Below are positions 5,773 through 59,180 of a DNA stretch of 64,000 nt, piece by piece. The notes beneath the pieces are model-generated. The model saw only the letters and a list, made by a program, of their open reading frames with translations. It ran no database searches and was not told the origin of the DNA. The position numbers and the translations under genes were made by a program. The DNA is from Epibacterium ulvae (GTDB taxonomy: Bacteria; Pseudomonadota; Alphaproteobacteria; Rhodobacterales; Rhodobacteraceae): assembly GCF_018678075.1 (NCBI RefSeq), contig NZ_JAHHIR010000081.1:1-64000 (forward strand), written 5' to 3'. Position 1 is the first letter of the stretch. Every line of letters starts with the position of its first letter.

Positions 5773-6480
5773 CTAGACCCCAAGAACCCGGCTGATAAGC
5801 TCTTCGTTTTCCGACAGTTCCTCGGCAGGGAAATCGGCCACGACTAGGCCGTTCTCGATCATGTAAAAATGATCCGCCAACTTGCGGGTAAAGAGCATGT
5901 TTTGTTCGACTAAAAGAATGGTGAGCCCACGTTTTTTCAGGTCCTGCAGCAGTTCAGCGATCTTTTGTACAAAAACCGGTGCCAGCCCTTCGGTAGGCTC
6001 GTCCAACAAGATCAAGTCCGGCCCCGCCAACAACACCCGCGCCATGGCCAGCATCTGCTGTTCGCCACCAGACAGGGTGCCCGCAGGCGCGTGACGGCGT
6101 TCCTGGATATTGGGGAAAAAGCTGTGCAGCTCATCAATGCTCATGCCGCTGTTGCCAACCTTGGGCAGCAGCTTCAGATTTTCCTGAACGCTCAAGCTGT
6201 TATAGGTTCCGCGGTCTTCGGGGACAAAGCCTATACCCTTGTAGGCCAGCTTGTGACGCGGCACCGCGCTGATGTCCTGCCCGTCCTTTGTGATCGACCC
6301 TTCGGTCCGCGTCAGCTGCCGGGTGATCGCACGCAGGGTCGTGGTTTTCCCCGCCCCATTGCGCCCCATCAAGGCGACGGTTTGGCCGCGTTTGACGTTG
6401 ATCTCGATACCATGCAGCGCTTTGCTTTCACCGTACCACCCGTGGATGTCCGAGAGCGCGAGACAGTTTTCTTCAATCAT
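5773..6480 (-). CDS. livF: ABC transporter ATP-binding protein LivF
   Basis: A 235-residue ATPase with Walker A GRNGAGKTT, the LivF-typical GFVPEDRGTYNSLSV, signature LSGGEQQMLAMARVL, Walker B LILLDEPTEGLAP and the switch region LLVEQN. The start at 6480 (MIEENCLAL) is chosen because the domain begins there. A longer frame to 6600 would add 40 residues unlike the family and overlap livG heavily. The remaining 8-bp overlap with livG suggests translational coupling. Confidence 0.92.
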   Translation of the reverse strand: MIEENCLALSDIHGWYGESKALHGIEINVKRGQTVALMGRNGAGKTTTLRAITRQLTRTEGSITKDGQDISAVPRHKLAYKGIGFVPEDRGTYNSLSVQENLKLLPKVGNSGMSIDELHSFFPNIQERRHAPAGTLSGGEQQMLAMARVLLAGPDLILLDEPTEGLAPVFVQKIAELLQDLKKRGLTILLVEQNMLFTRKLADHFYMIENGLVVADFPAEELSENEELISRVLGV

Positions 6481-43490: not shown

Positions 43491-44438
43491 TCAGTTGGTG
43501 ATCCCACCACATTGCGGCGTCTCAAGGTACTGCCGCAGTGCCGCCCCCTCATACCGGGTCAGGCCCAGCATCAATTTGGCATAAGCCGCCTCCAAGGTCA
43601 TATCTTTGCCGTCGATCGCGCGCGCTTCCGCCAAGGCAGCACCGGCGCTATAGGTGCCCATCACCATGCCACCCGCCGCACATTGGCTGATCGCCAGCAC
43701 CGGTAGATCGCGCGCGGCCAGATCCTGTAAAAAAGCACGAAACGCCGCATCCCCAGGCACATTGCCGGACCCAAAACAGCGCAGGATCACGCCGTCGGCG
43801 CGGGCGCACATATCCCGCAGCATCGCCGCCTGAATGCCCGGCGTTAGGGTGATCACTGCAATCGACTGGGATGCAAAGATCTGCTGGCGAAACACATCCG
43901 CCACGACTGCAGGCACCACATCACGTCGATCCGCATCAAAGGCATCGCGCGCCACCGAATGCACCTTTTGCACCCGCGTCCCCGGCAACAGCTGCCCGGC
44001 AAATTGCACCCAGACCCCGGGCGCGGCGCTACAGGCCGCCGCCATCGCCTCCACCAGATTGCGCGCACCGTCATTTCCCGCAACGCTTAGCGGCACCATG
44101 GATCCGGTCACCACCACGGGTTTTGCCAGACCTTCCAACGCCAGCGCCAGTGCCGCCGCTGCGTAACACATGGAATCGGTGCCGTGGATCACTACAAACC
44201 CATCGTGGCTATCGTGACGCGCGGCAATCTCCCCCGCGATCCAGTTCCAATCGGCGACCTGCGCCTGCGAGCTGTCAATCAACGGATCGGCCAGAACCAT
44301 GTCATAGGCCACCTGCACCTCACCTGCCTCCACCAACCGAGTCAAAGTCTCCTCAACCAACCCCGGTTTCGGTGCAAACCCGGTTGGCGTCATAGTGCTG
44401 CCAATGGTGCCCCCAGTGTGAATAACGCACAGCCGCAT
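43491..44438 (-). CDS. ansA: L-asparaginase (type I)
   Basis: A 315-residue asparaginase with both catalytic threonine regions: VIHTGGTIGS at residues 4-13 and FVVIHGTDSMCYAA at about 85. VTGSMVPL is also family-typical. The absence of a signal peptide points to a cytoplasmic enzyme hydrolysing asparagine to aspartate and ammonia. The start at 44438 has the ribosome-binding site GGGAGAGGACG. It converges with tonB, with stops 8 bp apart. Confidence 0.88.
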   Translation of the reverse strand: MRLCVIHTGGTIGSTMTPTGFAPKPGLVEETLTRLVEAGEVQVAYDMVLADPLIDSSQAQVADWNWIAGEIAARHDSHDGFVVIHGTDSMCYAAAALALALEGLAKPVVVTGSMVPLSVAGNDGARNLVEAMAAACSAAPGVWVQFAGQLLPGTRVQKVHSVARDAFDADRRDVVPAVVADVFRQQIFASQSIAVITLTPGIQAAMLRDMCARADGVILRCFGSGNVPGDAAFRAFLQDLAARDLPVLAISQCAAGGMVMGTYSAGAALAEARAIDGKDMTLEAAYAKLMLGLTRYEGAALRQYLETPQCGGITN

Positions 44439-53340: not shown

Positions 53341-54612
53341 TCACGCGGCCAGATCTTCAAAGGCCCCGGGCATCATTTCGCTCCAGAACTCCACCATTTC
53401 ACGTTCAAGCAGTGCCGCGGCCCACCCCGCCCGGCGAAACTCACCGCGTTCCAGCTCATCTTCCAGACGGCTCAGGAACAGGCGTTTGTCCGCATCGCGT
53501 TGGGTTGGCGACCGCTCGGCTGCCAGATCGCGGATCCGCTCAAGACGCGCCGCCCGCAGACCGCGCTCACGCTGTTTGATCTGATCGCGCGCAGCCTCAC
53601 GGCGGGCGGTCTCGGAACGTTCGGCCTCCAGACGGGCCGCGACCTCTGGATCGACCTTGGGCTTCACCGGCGCCTCGTCTTTGTAATCATCGCGCAAAGC
53701 CGCTGTCAGGTAGCGCACCGGGCTTTCGATGCCAGATCGTCCACCAAGATAGTCGAGCTTTTCGGCCACGTAATCCTCACCATGTTCGGCGATCCACTGG
53801 CGCGCCAGCCGGTCCGACACGCCAACCGCCAACAGCCGCTGGTAAATCGCCCCCTGGCGCACCCCTGCCCCGTCATCAATGTCCAGCATCGCCAGCTGCG
53901 GGTTTTCCTTGATCAGAAACCGCACCTCGGCCACCTGCCGGCCCATCTTCTTGAACTCGGGCGTCAGAATAATGTTCGAGGTCTTGTTGACCTCGGTCAC
54001 CGCCGGTTTGATCACCTTGGCGTTCAAATGTTTGAAACTCTCATAATAGGCGCTGCCCTCGACCCCCATCAGGCGACGAAACAGATCAATAGGCCACCAC
54101 CCGGTCGACCCGGTCCGCACAAAGCGATAGCAGTTCTCATACAAGGCCAGCGCATGACCACTGGTGAACCGCCGCTGGATGTTGAGGTTGATCAGGGCGA
54201 ATACCTTGGGGTCGTGCAGCTTTTCCGCCAGCGCCGGGGAATAGGCATACTCACAAATCCCCCCCGCCAGTTTCGCATAGGACAGCAACGACGACACACC
54301 CCATTCCTGTCGCCCTTCGGCGTCCAACATATCCCACTCGGCCACGGTTTCCGCCAGCGAGCGCAGCGACTGTTTCAGCGTTTCCATATCGTTGGAATTG
54401 TAGCCGACCATCATGCACAGGGTGCGCGCATCGATCTGGTGCTTCTGCTTGGTGGTCAGCGCGTCATAGGCATTGAGCAACAACACATTCGACAGCTTGC
54501 GCTGCAACAGCGTCAGCTTGCCGGAAATGTGGATCGCCGCCACGTTCTTCTTCACCGACTGACGCCGCAGGGGGCCGGTCAATTGCGTATGGGGAATGTC
54601 GCTCTGCGCCAT
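53341..54612 (-). CDS. repB: Plasmid replication initiator, Rep_3 (RepB) type
   Basis: A 423-residue initiator. Residues about 15-240 look like tandem winged helices of the Rep_3 family, with GKLTLLQRKLSNVLLLNAYD (outlined) at the start and SGHALALYENCYRFVRTGSTGWWPIDLFRRLMG in the middle, given here as landmarks. A Lys/Arg/Glu-rich coiled stretch (about 310-380) follows. It is divergent from parA across a 614-bp region with 22-bp iteron-like repeats, the usual target of Rep_3 proteins. Rhodobacteral extrachromosomal replicons of the RepB class have this composition. Confidence 0.82.
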   Translation of the reverse strand: MAQSDIPHTQLTGPLRRQSVKKNVAAIHISGKLTLLQRKLSNVLLLNAYDALTTKQKHQIDARTLCMMVGYNSNDMETLKQSLRSLAETVAEWDMLDAEGRQEWGVSSLLSYAKLAGGICEYAYSPALAEKLHDPKVFALINLNIQRRFTSGHALALYENCYRFVRTGSTGWWPIDLFRRLMGVEGSAYYESFKHLNAKVIKPAVTEVNKTSNIILTPEFKKMGRQVAEVRFLIKENPQLAMLDIDDGAGVRQGAIYQRLLAVGVSDRLARQWIAEHGEDYVAEKLDYLGGRSGIESPVRYLTAALRDDYKDEAPVKPKVDPEVAARLEAERSETARREAARDQIKQRERGLRAARLERIRDLAAERSPTQRDADKRLFLSRLEDELERGEFRRAGWAAALLEREMVEFWSEMMPGAFEDLAA

Positions 54613-54908
54613 CGCCTGTCCTATATGGTCTGCTCCCCACCGATTCTGTGCGGCAGGTGTGTTATGGGCTGACTATGCCACAAAAAGGCACCCACGCTCA
54701 ATCCTGTCTTGGGAACCCTTCATAGGAACCCGTTTGCAGGATACCCTCTTCCCGTAGATGGGTTCCTTTGGCATCCTGCCTGTGGAAAACTCTGTCCCCT
54801 TGCGCGAATTCAAGGTATCAAGAACCGCAAACGGAGTCTTAAAGCCGCTATTTAGAGCCAAACCGGGAATCGGCACCCCTCTTCCTGAGAATCGGACCCC
54901 TTCCCCCT

Positions 54909-54974
54909 GCATGCGGGTGCCACCGGTCCTGCATCCGGGTACCCCAATAACTGGAAACGGGTACCCAATGGGCC
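54909..54974 (+). repeat. Three 22-bp iteron-like direct repeats
   Basis: Units 54909-54930, 54931-54952 and 54953-54974 are contiguous and share the core (C/A)CGGGT(G/A)CC preceded by GCAT or GAAA. The last two have GGGTACCC. The two-turn periodicity is typical of Rep_3 iterons bound on one DNA face. Confidence 0.7.
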
Positions 54975-55082: not shown

Positions 55083-55099
55083 GGTTTCGCTGCGAAACC
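55083..55099. repeat. Candidate parS copy 1 (inverted orientation)
   Basis: GGTTTCGCTGCGAAACC, a near-perfect palindrome with a single central base, 128 bp before the parA start codon at 55227. Its central T means it is the reverse complement of the other four copies. Confidence 0.75.
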
Positions 55100-55226
55100 T
55101 CCCCGAATTGGCCCAGAACGGCTAAATCACATTCGCTGCAATTCTCCGATTCACAGCCATGCCAAGATGTGCGATGATTTGCACGATAACGCCACAAACA
55201 GGCGATCTGACCGAGGCACAGCACAC

Positions 55227-56651
55227 ATGGCTAAGAAACCCGATACCCCCTTGCCGCCCTATTTCAATTTGGACCCAGAAGCCGCCGCTGGCAAGCTTGG
55301 ACCATTGGTGGACACCGCACGATTTGCCAAAGCCGCCGCACTCGCCGGGCGCGGACGTGATGATTTGGCCAAACGTGGTTATTCTCCGGATGGCCAGAAA
55401 CGGCTGCGCAAATTCTCCACCTGGGAGATCTGCCGCTACCTGATCCCCGTCCAGGCCGCCCACCTGCGGCGCGTGTTGAACAAACATCCCGAGCTGCCCC
55501 AGGGCGAAGGCAGCGCAGGCTCACGCTGGTTCACCCTCGAAGAGGTGCTGAAACTGCGCGACCATTTCGCCGAAGAAGGCGTCAGCACCAAGGAGTATCG
55601 CCCCTATCGTCCACAAAACCTTAACGCCAAGACCGTAGCGGTTGCGAATTTTAAAGGGGGCGTTGGTAAAACCTCTACCGCGGCGCATCTGGCGATGTCT
55701 GCGGCGCTGGACGGCTACAAGGTTCTGGTGGTGGATCTGGACAGCCAGGGCTCGATGACATCGATCATGGGCGGCGATGTGCCGGATGAATGGAGCACGG
55801 TCTTCCCCCTGCTCGCCCGTGATTACGCCGAACATCTACAGGCAGAGAACAAGATCCGCGCCGCTGCCGGTGACTCGGAATTGCCGCTGGATGAGACCCT
55901 AACAGAGGCTTTGCAGGTTTCGTTGCGCGATGTGGTGCAGAAAACCCATTGGCCCAATATCGATCTGATCGGCGCCCAGCTGAACCTCTATTGGGCCGAA
56001 TTCCAGATCCCGGTCTGGCGCATGGGACTGCGCAATTGGCCCCTGTGGGACGCGCTCACCGGCGCATTGGAGAAAGGAGGCGCTTTGGACGACTATGACA
56101 TCATCCTGCTCGATACGCCTCCGGCGCTTGGCTATCTGACGATCAACGCGCTGGCCGCCGCCGATATCCTGATGGTACCGCTTGGGGCGTCGTTCCTTGA
56201 ATTTGACTCTACGGGTCGGTTCTTTGACATGCTCTACTCCACCTTTGCCTCGATCGAGGATGGTGAAAACGCAGGCCGCCGCCGCGCGGGCCTGCCGGAG
56301 ATGAAGTTTGAATGGGACGTGGTACGCGCCCTGATCACCCGTTTTGACGCCAGCCAACAAGCGGATCTGGCCAATGTGATCCAGGCCTATTTCGGCGATT
56401 TCATGAACGCGCACCGCCAGGACTATACCGCGCTGGTGGGTCAGGCGGGCGAAAGCGTGTCCGGCATCTACGAGGCGGATTACCGCAATTTCAACCGTGA
56501 GACCTACACCCGGGGCCGCGAGGTGTTCGACCGCACCTACGCCGAATTCAAAGAGCTGTTGATCGGAGCCTGGTGGCGCGATGCACAGATGGCTGAGGCT
56601 GAAGGTGACATGGGAGGTTTCGCAGCGAAACCTCAGGAGGAGGCAGAGTAA
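55227..56651 (+). CDS. parA: ParA partition ATPase
   Basis: A 474-residue type Ia ParA. An N-terminal DNA-binding region of about 130 residues with an HTH-like stretch (FSTWEICRYLIP) precedes the deviant Walker A FKGGVGKTS at 142-150. Walker A' and B are VVDLDSQGS and IILLDTPPALGYLT. It moves plasmid copies apart together with ParB. The ATG at 55227 gives the normal start before the N-terminal domain. The last coding part contains candidate parS copy 2. parB begins at the base after its stop. Confidence 0.9.
   Translation: MAKKPDTPLPPYFNLDPEAAAGKLGPLVDTARFAKAAALAGRGRDDLAKRGYSPDGQKRLRKFSTWEICRYLIPVQAAHLRRVLNKHPELPQGEGSAGSRWFTLEEVLKLRDHFAEEGVSTKEYRPYRPQNLNAKTVAVANFKGGVGKTSTAAHLAMSAALDGYKVLVVDLDSQGSMTSIMGGDVPDEWSTVFPLLARDYAEHLQAENKIRAAAGDSELPLDETLTEALQVSLRDVVQKTHWPNIDLIGAQLNLYWAEFQIPVWRMGLRNWPLWDALTGALEKGGALDDYDIILLDTPPALGYLTINALAAADILMVPLGASFLEFDSTGRFFDMLYSTFASIEDGENAGRRRAGLPEMKFEWDVVRALITRFDASQQADLANVIQAYFGDFMNAHRQDYTALVGQAGESVSGIYEADYRNFNRETYTRGREVFDRTYAEFKELLIGAWWRDAQMAEAEGDMGGFAAKPQEEAE
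56616..56632. repeat. Candidate parS copy 2, inside parA
   Basis: GGTTTCGCAGCGAAACC lies within the final codons of parA, encoding GFAAKP in the reading frame. Its retention inside a gene suggests the DNA sequence itself is selected. Confidence 0.75.
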
Positions 56652-57740
56652 ATGGCACGACGCAGACAATTAGAGGCCCCATCCGCCGAAGCCCTGAAAG
56701 AGATCGAAGCAGGCATCGACCAAGAGCTGAGCCGCACCGCCGTGCGCCCACCAATTGCCGATGTGGTGGCGGACGCCGCCATGCGTGCCTCTCCCCTGCC
56801 CCAGGCCGATCGGGAAGCGTACGCCAAAGATAAAGCCGACGCCGAACGCCTGCGCGAGGCCGAGGGCAAAGGCCTGGTGGCGGTAGAAATTCCCATTCAC
56901 CAGATCACCGCCGACGCGTTGTCGCGGGACCGGATGGAGTTGAACGAGGATGAGATGCAGGAGCTGATGACCTCCATCTCCGTCAACGGGCTGCGCCTGC
57001 CGATTGAGGTCTATGTGCCGCAACATGTCGAAGACGGCGCACAATACGGGCTGATCTCAGGCTACCGTCGACTGGCCGCGATCCGCCGTCTGAACGCGAT
57101 GAGCGGTGGCGAACGCTTCCCCACCATCGCCGCCTTTGTCCGTGATCCCGGCGGTGTCAAAGAAGCGCTGGTAGCGATGATCGAAGAAAATGAGGTCCGC
57201 GCGGGCCTCAGCCAATATGAACGCGGCCGCGCGGCGGCAATGGCGGTTTATGACGGCGTGTTCACCAGCGTGGACGAGGCGGTTGCGGTTCTGTTTTCCA
57301 CCGCCTCCAAAGCCAAACGCTCCAAGATCCGGTCGTTTGCGCTGGTGCATGAGGACCTCGGCGATCTTTTGTCCCACGCAATTGCCTATAGCGAACGCCA
57401 GTGTTTGCGGCTGGCCACCGCCTTGCGTGCGGGGCTGACCGAAGACATCCGCGCAGCGCTGGAACGTGCGGACCCCCGCGATGGCGAGGAAGAATGGCTG
57501 GTGATGCTGCCCTTGGTCGAACAGGCCGAAGGTGCCGCGCCTGATCCCGCCCGTGGCGGACGTCCCAAAGTGAAGGAAAAGCCGGTGGTCACCGGGCGCG
57601 AAAAGATGGCCAACGGCATCGAGATCGCGCGCGAAAGTGGACCCAACGGATATGCAATCCGGTTCTACGGCAAGGAAGTCACCGCCGATCTGGTCGACAC
57701 GGTGATGGATAGCGTGCGCCATCTGTTGGAACCAAAGTAA
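56652..57740 (+). CDS. parB: ParB partition protein
   Basis: A 362-residue ParB-family protein. The N-terminal CTPase-type box contains LMTSISVNGLRLPIEVYVPQ (outlined), then GYRRLAAIRRL and MIEENEVRAGLSQYERGR, and the central HTH covers about 190-260. It should bind the 17-bp palindromes around it. Its ATG is adjacent to the parA stop. Confidence 0.9.
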   Translation: MARRRQLEAPSAEALKEIEAGIDQELSRTAVRPPIADVVADAAMRASPLPQADREAYAKDKADAERLREAEGKGLVAVEIPIHQITADALSRDRMELNEDEMQELMTSISVNGLRLPIEVYVPQHVEDGAQYGLISGYRRLAAIRRLNAMSGGERFPTIAAFVRDPGGVKEALVAMIEENEVRAGLSQYERGRAAAMAVYDGVFTSVDEAVAVLFSTASKAKRSKIRSFALVHEDLGDLLSHAIAYSERQCLRLATALRAGLTEDIRAALERADPRDGEEEWLVMLPLVEQAEGAAPDPARGGRPKVKEKPVVTGREKMANGIEIARESGPNGYAIRFYGKEVTADLVDTVMDSVRHLLEPK

Positions 57741-57763
57741 GCGGCAGCTGTTGCTAAGATGAA

Positions 57764-57792
57764 AAAGGCCCGGTCTAACGCCCGGGCCTTTT
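57764..57792 (+). terminator. Rho-independent terminator of parAB
   Basis: AAAAGGCCCGG and CCGGGCCTTTT form an 11-bp stem with a 7-base loop, 24 bp past the parB stop. The stem ends in TTTT. Confidence 0.85.
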
Positions 57793-57810
57793 GCTGTTTG
57801 AGCCCATTGA

Positions 57811-57827
57811 GGTTTCGCAGCGAAACC
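57811..57827. repeat. Candidate parS copy 3
   Basis: GGTTTCGCAGCGAAACC, identical to copies 2, 4 and 5, just after the parAB terminator. Confidence 0.75.
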
Positions 57828-57943
57828 TATTGAGGCGGATGGCAGAGGCGTTTCGGGGGTTTCATATTTCTGTGCAGCACCTATGACAGAAGCAATGTTT
57901 TTACTGGGCCGAAGACTGCGCGGCCAAAAGAATGGATTGTGCC

Positions 57944-58738
57944 ATGACCGATCGTACCGAATTTATCCGAGACCTTGCCGAAGAAGCGGCCGCGTTGGGG
58001 CTGAAGCTGCGTCGCGAACAAGGGGCGGATTTTGTCCAGACCAAGGGGCATCAGGACTTTGTTACCTTTGCCGACCGCGCAGTCGAAGAGCTGATCCGCG
58101 CCAGAATCGCGGAGCAGTTTCCGGGCGAGGATGTCTTGGGCGAAGAAGAAGGGCAGACCGGTGATGGGCCCAAACTTTGGGTGGTGGACCCGATCGACGG
58201 CACGGCCAACTATATGCGTGGTGGCGCGGATTGGGCGGTCTCAATCGCTTATGTCGAAGACGGGGTGCTGAGCCACGCGGCGATCTGCGCGCCGGAATTG
58301 GACGTCACGCTGTGGGCGGCAAACGGGCAGGGCGCACAGGTGCGTTATGATGGCGCGGTCAACGCGGTGAAACTGTCGGATTGCACCGACCCAAAGGCCG
58401 CGATGTTAATGCTGGGCTGGTCCGGACGCCAGCCGGTTCCTAGCCATGTTGAAACCATCCTGAATGCGTTGGCTGCGGGCATGGAATATCGTCGCAACGG
58501 CTCTGCTGTCATCAGCCTGTTGGCGGTCGCGATGGGCCGGGCCGAAGGCTATTGGGAGCGCTACGTCAATGCGTGGGACGTCTTTGCCATGTGGTTGATC
58601 CTTGAGGAAGCAGGTGCGGTGATCGAGACCCTGCCGCCGCTGGATTTCATCGGATCGCCCAAGCATTTTCTCGCCATGGTGCCCGCCTTGGAAGCGGATC
58701 TGCGCGCCGTTGTCGGGACCTTGCCGCCGGTTGATTGA
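57944..58738 (+). CDS. Inositol monophosphatase-family phosphatase
   Basis: A 264-residue phosphatase with the metal-binding GEEEG, VVDPIDGTANYMRG and the C-terminal YVNAWDVFAMWLILEEAG (outlined) with the WDxxA motif. Members hydrolyse inositol phosphates, fructose bisphosphate, histidinol phosphate or PAP; the substrate is not assigned. The start at 57944 is one choice and 57932 another, as neither has a strong ribosome-binding site. It lies between candidate parS copies 3 and 4. Confidence 0.85.
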   Translation: MTDRTEFIRDLAEEAAALGLKLRREQGADFVQTKGHQDFVTFADRAVEELIRARIAEQFPGEDVLGEEEGQTGDGPKLWVVDPIDGTANYMRGGADWAVSIAYVEDGVLSHAAICAPELDVTLWAANGQGAQVRYDGAVNAVKLSDCTDPKAAMLMLGWSGRQPVPSHVETILNALAAGMEYRRNGSAVISLLAVAMGRAEGYWERYVNAWDVFAMWLILEEAGAVIETLPPLDFIGSPKHFLAMVPALEADLRAVVGTLPPVD

Positions 58739-58749
58739 TCGACAGGGGA

Positions 58750-58766
58750 GGTTTCGCAGCGAAACC
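58750..58766. repeat. Candidate parS copy 4
   Basis: GGTTTCGCAGCGAAACC, extended on both sides by GGGA and TCCC, 11 bp after the phosphatase stop. Confidence 0.75.
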
Positions 58767-59163
58767 TCCCGATGCCCACAGAGAAATTTCCTCCGAATGT
58801 GCCACTCAAACAGCTAAAACTGTCTGAAATAAAACCAACGTTGCCTTTGGTGGTTTTGTGCGGTTCCGGCGCTAAGACCTTGGGAAATTAGGCACAATTT
58901 GGCGTGATGATATTATGCATACTTGGTCTATCTAACTGAAATACATAAATAATTTGACGTTTTGCAAGTTTGAAGTCGCCGATCTTTCGCGCCATAGTCA
59001 GGGGGCGGGTTGATGCGGCCCAATTAAGGTCATCATCTTGCTGGTCGGTGGGACCGGAGGGAAGGGTTGGCGCGGTGCCTTGGGGGAGGCACCCGCCAGC
59101 ACTTTGACGGTTTTCCTTTGTTGAAAAGATCAACAGGGTCGCAACTCGCCTGCGCTCATGCCC

Positions 59164-59180
59164 GGTTTCGCAGCGAAACC
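59164..59180. repeat. Candidate parS copy 5
   Basis: GGTTTCGCAGCGAAACC, about 150 bp upstream of pgm. It is the last copy seen in the window. Confidence 0.75.

Follow-up and report, generated by a model that had tools for sequence, protein, structure and literature searches.

The 64,000-nucleotide stretch of Epibacterium ulvae DNA analysed here (hereafter the window; positions 1 to 64,000 of NZ_JAHHIR010000081.1, part of a 79,525-base-pair (bp) contig) carries five copies of the 17-bp palindrome GGTTTCGCWGCGAAACC around a parA-parB gene pair. These palindromes are very probably the partition sites (parS) of the adjacent type-I parAB system on a RepB-I (Rep_3) replicon, a confidence that concerns their identity as parS and does not extend to any preference of ParB for one site length. 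Judged from the sites and the ParB tree, the half-sites GTTTCGC and GCGAAAC are constant family-wide, but their spacing varies: within the window's own ParB clade it has alternated several times between a 1-bp and a 2-bp gap, giving sites of 17 or 18 bp. The first-pass annotation, made from the window alone, had also proposed the palindromes as candidate parS of parAB, and this reading gained support from a scan for the 17-bp word alone, from loci selected by their ParB and from closed plasmids. The sites and the two partition genes are arranged as follows.

55083..55099, no strand: candidate parS copy 1, T-centred, exact match, about 130 bp 5' of the parA start.
55227..56651, forward strand: parA, encoding a ParA ATPase of 474 amino acids, ATG at 55227, with deviant Walker A motif KGGVGKT.
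56616..56632, no strand: candidate parS copy 2, exact match, in the last parA codons, 19 bp before the parB start codon.
56652..57740, forward strand: parB, encoding a ParB of 362 amino acids, contiguous with parA and followed by an inositol-monophosphatase-family gene and a phosphoglucomutase gene.
57811..57827, no strand: candidate parS copy 3, exact match, beyond a terminator-like hairpin and 70 bp 3' of parB.
58750..58766, no strand: candidate parS copy 4, exact match, 11 bp 3' of the inositol-monophosphatase-family gene, before pgm.
59164..59180, no strand: candidate parS copy 5, exact match, about 150 bp 5' of the phosphoglucomutase gene pgm.

The exact matches begin at 55083, 56616, 57811, 58750 and 59164, with spacings of 1533, 1195, 939 and 414 bp, which bears out the positions, the uneven spacing and the lack of any other exact copy in the window given by the first-pass annotation; as it had also described, the copies surround parA and parB and reach the flanks of unrelated genes, copies 4 and 5 lying among metabolic genes. 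When up to three mismatches to GGTTTCGCWGCGAAACC were allowed, one further match appeared in the window, at 44365, making six in all; the chance expectation at this tolerance is 0.27 matches, and none of 100 shuffles reached six. A scan of the strain's own genome (4,092,871 bp in 107 contigs) found no exact copy beyond the five. Chance palindromes were ruled out by the shuffle control, by this genome-wide count and by the gap and reversed-sequence controls across loci given below. Copy 1 differs from copies 2 to 5 in having T instead of A as its central base, and the 8-bp arms are perfect inverted repeats; the earlier description of the first copy as inverted thus holds for the central base and fails for the arms, which are perfectly symmetric. 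Copy 2 spells G-F-A-A-K-P within the parA tail, a location repeated in the closest relatives (L018, L078, L080), which also hold copies in the downstream region where copy 4 sits. The hairpin preceding copy 3 (57772-57788) is a consensus match only, of a kind not above shuffled expectation here.

The two genes and the palindromes together have the composition of a type-I ParABS system. ParA, an ATPase by its deviant Walker A motif, matched the profiles AAA_31 (2e-30), CbiA (7.3e-16) and TIGR03453 (4.7e-64, under that model's cut-off), and ParB matched ParB_N, TIGR00180 (1e-9) and TIGR03454 (1.2e-11), all under cut-off. The AlphaFold model of ParB (mean predicted local distance difference test score, pLDDT, 88.6) contains an N-domain, a helix-turn-helix (HTH) domain and a C-terminal strand-strand-strand-helix domain, the last predicted to mediate dimerisation; its top solved matches in Foldseek were Noc and KorB (E 3e-7 to 1e-4), with low template modelling (TM) scores that limit the comparison to the level of domains. 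Residues G137, R139, R140, E179, N180 and R183 were invariant in 97 aligned sequences and resemble the CTPase motifs GxRR and ENxxR, an invariance that makes a cytidine triphosphate (CTP) clamp likely. The third component, a repeated DNA site linked to parAB, would be the palindromes as the putative cognate site.

We infer a mechanism in which the two HTH domains of a ParB dimer would each occupy one 8-bp half-site (GGTTTCGC or GCGAAACC), the dimer then closing as a CTP clamp and loading onto the flanking DNA, after which ParA would pull the ParB-DNA complexes away from each other. With the copies spread over about 4 kilobases (kb), there would be several loading points, one of them in parA and two among metabolic genes.

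Linkage of the palindrome to parAB was assessed in two collections chosen in opposite ways. A scan of species genomes for the exact 17-bp word alone returned at least 117 stretches, and among the matches listed 58 of 117 held Rep_3, ParA or ParB homologues, as did 20 of the 21 listed stretches with two or more copies (the exception being L093). Because the choice by the 17-bp word biases this collection, it was kept out of the gap counts. The second collection comprised 92 loci selected for the similarity of their ParB, before any inspection of their DNA, namely 30 hits of clade I (the window's ParB clade) besides the window, 22 weaker hits (one on contig C14 of the window's own genome) and 40 further hits, weaker hits of both ParB lists being left out. 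At least one exact half-site pair was present in 82 of these 92 loci, including 66/69 in clade I and 16/18 in its sister clade, clade II. The remaining five loci (L160-L162, L166, L188) have odd ParBs of unusual composition or long branch; they fall inside clade I in a quick tree and were kept out of the careful tree, the slot counts and the clade counts. Locus L204 has a ParB shorter than 240 amino acids and is in no tree. On 12 closed plasmids (2.56 Mb in total, picked from 60 listed of 606 found), all 37 half-site pairs lay within about 5 kb of parAB, with coordinates read by eye, and each of the 12 plasmids was positive.

The sites also recur in the same places. Among 161 clade-I sites, 22 lie 5' of parA, 24 in parA, 48 in the 5' part of parB and 34 just 3' of parB. 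In clade I the outer bases are G..C in 119 of 162 sites and never T..A, and clade II shows the opposite, with T..A in 28 of its 36 sites and G..C in none; this tracking of the ParB clade by the outer base counts for the parS reading. The presumed recognition helix (a helix at residues 220-236 of the ParB model, which may read the DNA) has K220 or R220 in step with outer G or T, although this is a single split between the two clades and proves nothing.

Several observations weigh against the parS reading. Among the listed stretches with the exact word, 59 of 117 had no ParA, ParB or Rep homologue (28 labelled Rhodobacterales, 31 elsewhere or unplaced), and one of them, L093 from Rhodobacteraceae, holds the word at 702, 1981 and 2782, within 2.1 kb. 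Clade-I loci L141, L142 and L157 lack an exact pair (3/69), L141 and L142 carrying GGTTTCGTGACGAAACC instead, and the five odd ParBs lack one as well, so that counting them into clade I as in the quick tree lowers its total to 66/74. The 59 also include a conserved element, some 40 bp long and holding the exact word, in Leisingera and two Rhodobacteraceae (L068, L106), which is chromosomal and recurrent in Leisingera. This element consists of a TTAA-N7-TTAA box, aacaa, the palindrome and ccttttca (L011:7205, L054:6046, L037:7238 and relatives), the box being CtrA-like, and it occurs at no fewer than three loci with unlike flanks and no ParA, ParB or Rep homologue within the stretch. Scattering of the motif over chromosomes lacking parAB, which the first-pass annotation had named as an argument against its own proposal, is borne out in part by these stretches and the Leisingera element, and is not seen in the window's own genome.

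The recurrent Leisingera element with its CtrA-like box would suit an alternative in which the palindromes play no part in a centromere and are transcription-factor operators, for instance serving autoregulation by ParB or ParA, or a repressor unrelated to them. Copies 1, 3, 4 and 5 of the window are intergenic, copy 5 about 150 bp upstream of pgm, and contigs from the window's genus repeatedly carry a similar 18-mer. We nevertheless regard this explanation as improbable: of the 161 clade-I sites, 78 fall within the coding sequence of parA or parB, the outer base follows the ParB clade, and the half-site pairs of the closed plasmids keep to the neighbourhood of parAB. It is very improbable that the sites serve the replication origin instead of partition, as Rep_3 binding sites or in the control of copy number. 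In favour of this are the neighbouring Rep_3 gene and the 20 clade-I sites, of 161, found on the rep side of parA; however, 119 of 161 lie in parA, in parB or 3' of parB, the clade-II loci, where no homologue of the window's Rep_3 protein was found, have the same half-sites beside parAB, and more iteron-like repeats of the window lie elsewhere (54700-54970).

The gap between the half-sites was followed across the family. In the 92 loci, exact half-sites GTTTCGC/GCGAAAC were separated by 1 bp in 132 sites and by 2 bp in 66, and exact arms at a gap of 0 or 3-6 bp were found neither in these loci nor in a reversed-sequence control; allowing one mismatch added three sites at gap 3 and one at gap 5, numbers similar to the control. 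The exact window-type word was present in only 4 of 198 family genomes, the window's own included, because relatives' sites mostly have C or G at the centre or take the 18-bp form. On the careful ParB tree, with 69 clade-I rows including the window, 52 rows had 17-bp sites only, 11 had 18-bp sites only, three were mixed and three had no exact site. This character requires six changes on the tree, well-supported branches forcing at least four, and a single origin of the 18-bp form in clade I, found in 0% of 200 bootstrap trees, is not supported. The window's own group is among the variable ones, since it takes in (support 100/100) an 18-bp locus, L130, as well as three mixed ones, L131, L190 and L191.

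The site inside parB illustrates how strictly the DNA word is kept. An exact site was present in the 5' part of parB in 48 clade-I loci, at nucleotide 60 or 61 (codons 21-26) in 46 and at 58 or 64 in two. Three encodings occur: 17-bp sites read in frame 0 give GFAAKP or near variants of it (19 loci), those read in frame 1 give EFRRET, EFRSET or near variants (20 loci), and 18-bp sites, in frame 0, give GFARET or GFACET (nine loci). Phenylalanine is common to these solutions and most other residues differ, yet the DNA site is retained, which indicates that the DNA and not the peptide is conserved. A gap change inside parB would need a nearby compensating insertion or deletion to hold the frame. 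The window's parB is without this internal site, and the GFAAKP coding is borne instead by copy 2 in the parA tail.

Whether ParB distinguishes the two spacings is a separate question. Among 53 clade-I loci with two or more exact sites, 50 had a uniform gap and three were mixed, as against 22.6 mixed loci expected from random dealing (minimum 15 in 2000 shuffles), a control that ignores common descent. Lineages that switched are wholly in the new state, with three of three exact sites in each of L132, L134 and L192 and two of two in L210. Since the gap is mostly uniform within a locus and yet changed repeatedly within the clade, the balance tips towards a ParB that prefers one spacing. Neither the presumed recognition helix ASKAKRSKIRSFA, which is alike in the two, nor any column of the ParB alignment separated owners of 17-bp sites from owners of 18-bp sites, so the spacing, if measured at all, would probably be measured by domain geometry, that is, by the arrangement of the dimer and not by the helix. 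The best column difference, 0.66, was in the last residues (6 of 58 '17' rows and 3 of 6 clade-I 'mixed' rows in this comparison come from the word-scan collection), and no ParB residue that sets the gap was found. Each extra base pair in the gap is a turn of about 34 degrees.

Against such a preference, two of the 11 closed plasmids with at least two sites (W06, W07) were mixed, as were seven loci in the collection chosen by the 17-bp word, a choice that favours mixed loci. The sites may instead be parS read by a ParB indifferent to a gap of 1 or 2 bp, uniformity arising through descent and site copying, an alternative that falls only a little short of an even call. It would explain the shared recognition helix with its lack of a separating column and the mixed loci of the window's subclade, is strengthened by the existence of mixed closed plasmids, and agrees with the finding that, among the best five ParB candidates scored in each of 394 genomes, no second clade-I system was seen beside the first, whatever the gap. 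Less easily explained by indifference are the scarcity of mixed multi-site loci, with the reservation about descent just given, the complete switches of L132, L134, L192 and L210, and the fact that exact arms never occur at gaps of 0 or 3-6 bp.

A broader proposal would treat half-site spacing as an evolvable character, with frozen half-sites, switches within one compatibility group and an unchanged recognition helix; most replicons would have switched all their sites together, paired insertions and deletions in parB would have kept both frame and site, and spacing, together with the gap of 0 of the chromosomal site, would insulate from one another co-resident ParBs whose half-sites are nearly identical. 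This reading is weakened by the two mixed plasmids among the 11 multi-site closed ones, and we offer it tentatively, as one that we think may well not hold. A family in which constant half-sites stand 1 or 2 bp apart offers a natural experiment on the way in which a ParB dimer gauges its site ahead of closure of the CTP clamp, and the occurrence of 17-bp, 18-bp and mixed members in the window's subclade makes the spacing question directly testable.

The remaining features of the locus lie on the rep side of parA.

53341..54612, reverse strand: gene for a Rep_3 replication initiator, putatively of RepB-I type (Rep3_N 2.4e-20, Rep3_C 2.9e-14).
54700..54970, no strand: imperfect direct and inverted repeats in the rep-parA interval, possibly iterons or a replication origin, a weak inference.

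The repeats contain GGAACCC and GGGTACC and might be iterons of Rep_3. The initiator is 78% identical to a protein of Marinovum algicola FF3 (L065), plasmid pMaD9 of M. algicola has a ParB that matches here and an initiator annotated RepB-I, and the relatives in clade I include the 72-kb chromid of Dinoroseobacter shibae by its ParB match (L136, a 72,296-bp contig of genome G035). The D. shibae 72-kb chromid is of RepB-I type and its 153-kb chromid of RepA-I type (PMC9426580). From its Rep_3 domains, the annotation of its relatives and the adjacent parAB, the window's replicon is classed as RepB-I in the Petersen scheme; it shares a Rep_3 initiator and the parAB order with RepB-I plasmids and chromids of Rhodobacterales such as the D. 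shibae 72-kb chromid and pMaD9. Clade II is probably RepA-I, because one of its members is a contig of 152,970 bp from G035, the genome that also holds L136, and the D. shibae 153-kb chromid is RepA-I.

Replicons of this kind are common in the family: clade-I ParB was found in 70 of 394 genomes, and at least one such replicon has been called a chromid (PMC9426580). The 70 clade-I hits (69 fetched as loci, the 70th being the window) were in 70 different genomes, the best five candidates per genome being scored, where a Poisson distribution predicts about 6.6 genomes with two. This pattern fits a single incompatibility group across both gap classes, in which exclusion may come from Rep or from parS. 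Two caveats apply, since genome G091 also has the odd ParB L161, a clade-I member in the quick tree, and plasmid record H20 has two ParB places. The idea that compatibility within clade I is switched by the length of the gap is not supported, as no genome among the 394, on the same five-candidate basis, was seen to have 17-bp and 18-bp clade-I systems together.

Among known sites, the chromosomal parS of ParB/Spo0J, TGTTTCACGTGAAACA, has a half-site, TGTTTCAC, near-identical to GGTTTCGC/TGTTTCGC of the window's family; however, its gap is 0 as opposed to 1-2 bp, and the outer and seventh half-site bases differ. Identity with the chromosomal Spo0J/ParB site was rejected because the window copies differ from TGTTTCACGTGAAACA, of which the same genome has two exact copies on contig C31, another contig than the window's. 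RepABC systems resemble the window in having palindromic sites around parAB-like genes in several copies, some kilobases away, and the best family models of the window's ParA and ParB are RepA and RepB partition models, under cut-off. RepABC types carry diagnostic 14-bp palindromes for each compatibility group, in several copies and sometimes kilobases away (PMC9040568, PMC5613091), with a 16-bp parS consensus of contiguous halves, GTTNNNNGCNNNNAAC (PMC9040568). In RepABC the length is thus even and group identity lies in the bases, whereas here the half-site is constant and the length 17 or 18 bp, and the window's initiator is a Rep_3 protein and not RepC. The RepABC-type site was accordingly rejected on sequence, the arms GTTTCGC/GCGAAAC being 1-2 bp apart, and the earlier remark that the palindrome differs from it proved correct against the published consensus. 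Vibrio cholerae chromosome II has in parS2 a 15-bp inverted repeat with ten binding-competent sites (PMC3688505), similarly odd in length and multiple, but its AT-rich half-site TGTAAA is unrelated and the accessible part of PMC3688505 mentions no gap polymorphism. The Bsr systems of Burkholderiales likewise comprise related ParBs with related palindromes; their 16-bp parS, in contrast, has two contiguous 8-bp arms of fixed length and varies in its bases (PMC5450999).

ParABS itself, multi-copy palindromic parS, odd-length sites and distant copies are thus known, and what is apparently new is the RepB-I centromere family and its gap switch. Partition palindromes have been reported for RepABC types and none for RepB-I in the literature searched, which, as far as its available parts go and with the first classification papers (Petersen 2009, 2011) outside it, reports neither a parS of RepB-I replicons nor a switch of gap length (PMC9025767, PMC5613091, PMC9044938, PMC9426580, PMC3832669, PMC7383237, PMC3910554, PMC3688505, PMC5450999, PMC3910702, PMC4572655, PMC4148953, PMC9040568). 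Draft genomes could be screened with the half-site pattern, as a practical marker of RepB-I replicons and of those of clade II, which are probably RepA-I.

The window's own genome contains further related sites. A second ParB, of clade II, is encoded at C14:19436-20233 (L167), with an 18-bp site, TGTTTCGCATGCGAAACA, at C14:20653; counting the window's clade-I system, the cell thus appears to carry a pair of related partition systems that differ in outer bases and gap. The sequence TGTTTCGCACGCGAAACA, which equals the clade-II parS pattern, has seven dispersed copies (C2:27088, C20:114134, C20:123937, C45:54998, C56:17087, C70:1893, C97:21408), none on the contig of either known ParB; the centre is always AC, and four of the seven lie beside TTGAYC-N4-GGWCAA-like repeats. 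They may be sites of a regulator or of a chromosomal ParB. Within the window's genus 14 of 18 genomes carry the sequence, as against 2 of the 43 others searched. The 11.9-kb contig C91 (L170), in which no homologue of the window's ParA, ParB or Rep was found, has near copies at 5895, 6624 and 6802, within 1 kb and with 0-1 mismatches in the 7-bp arms.

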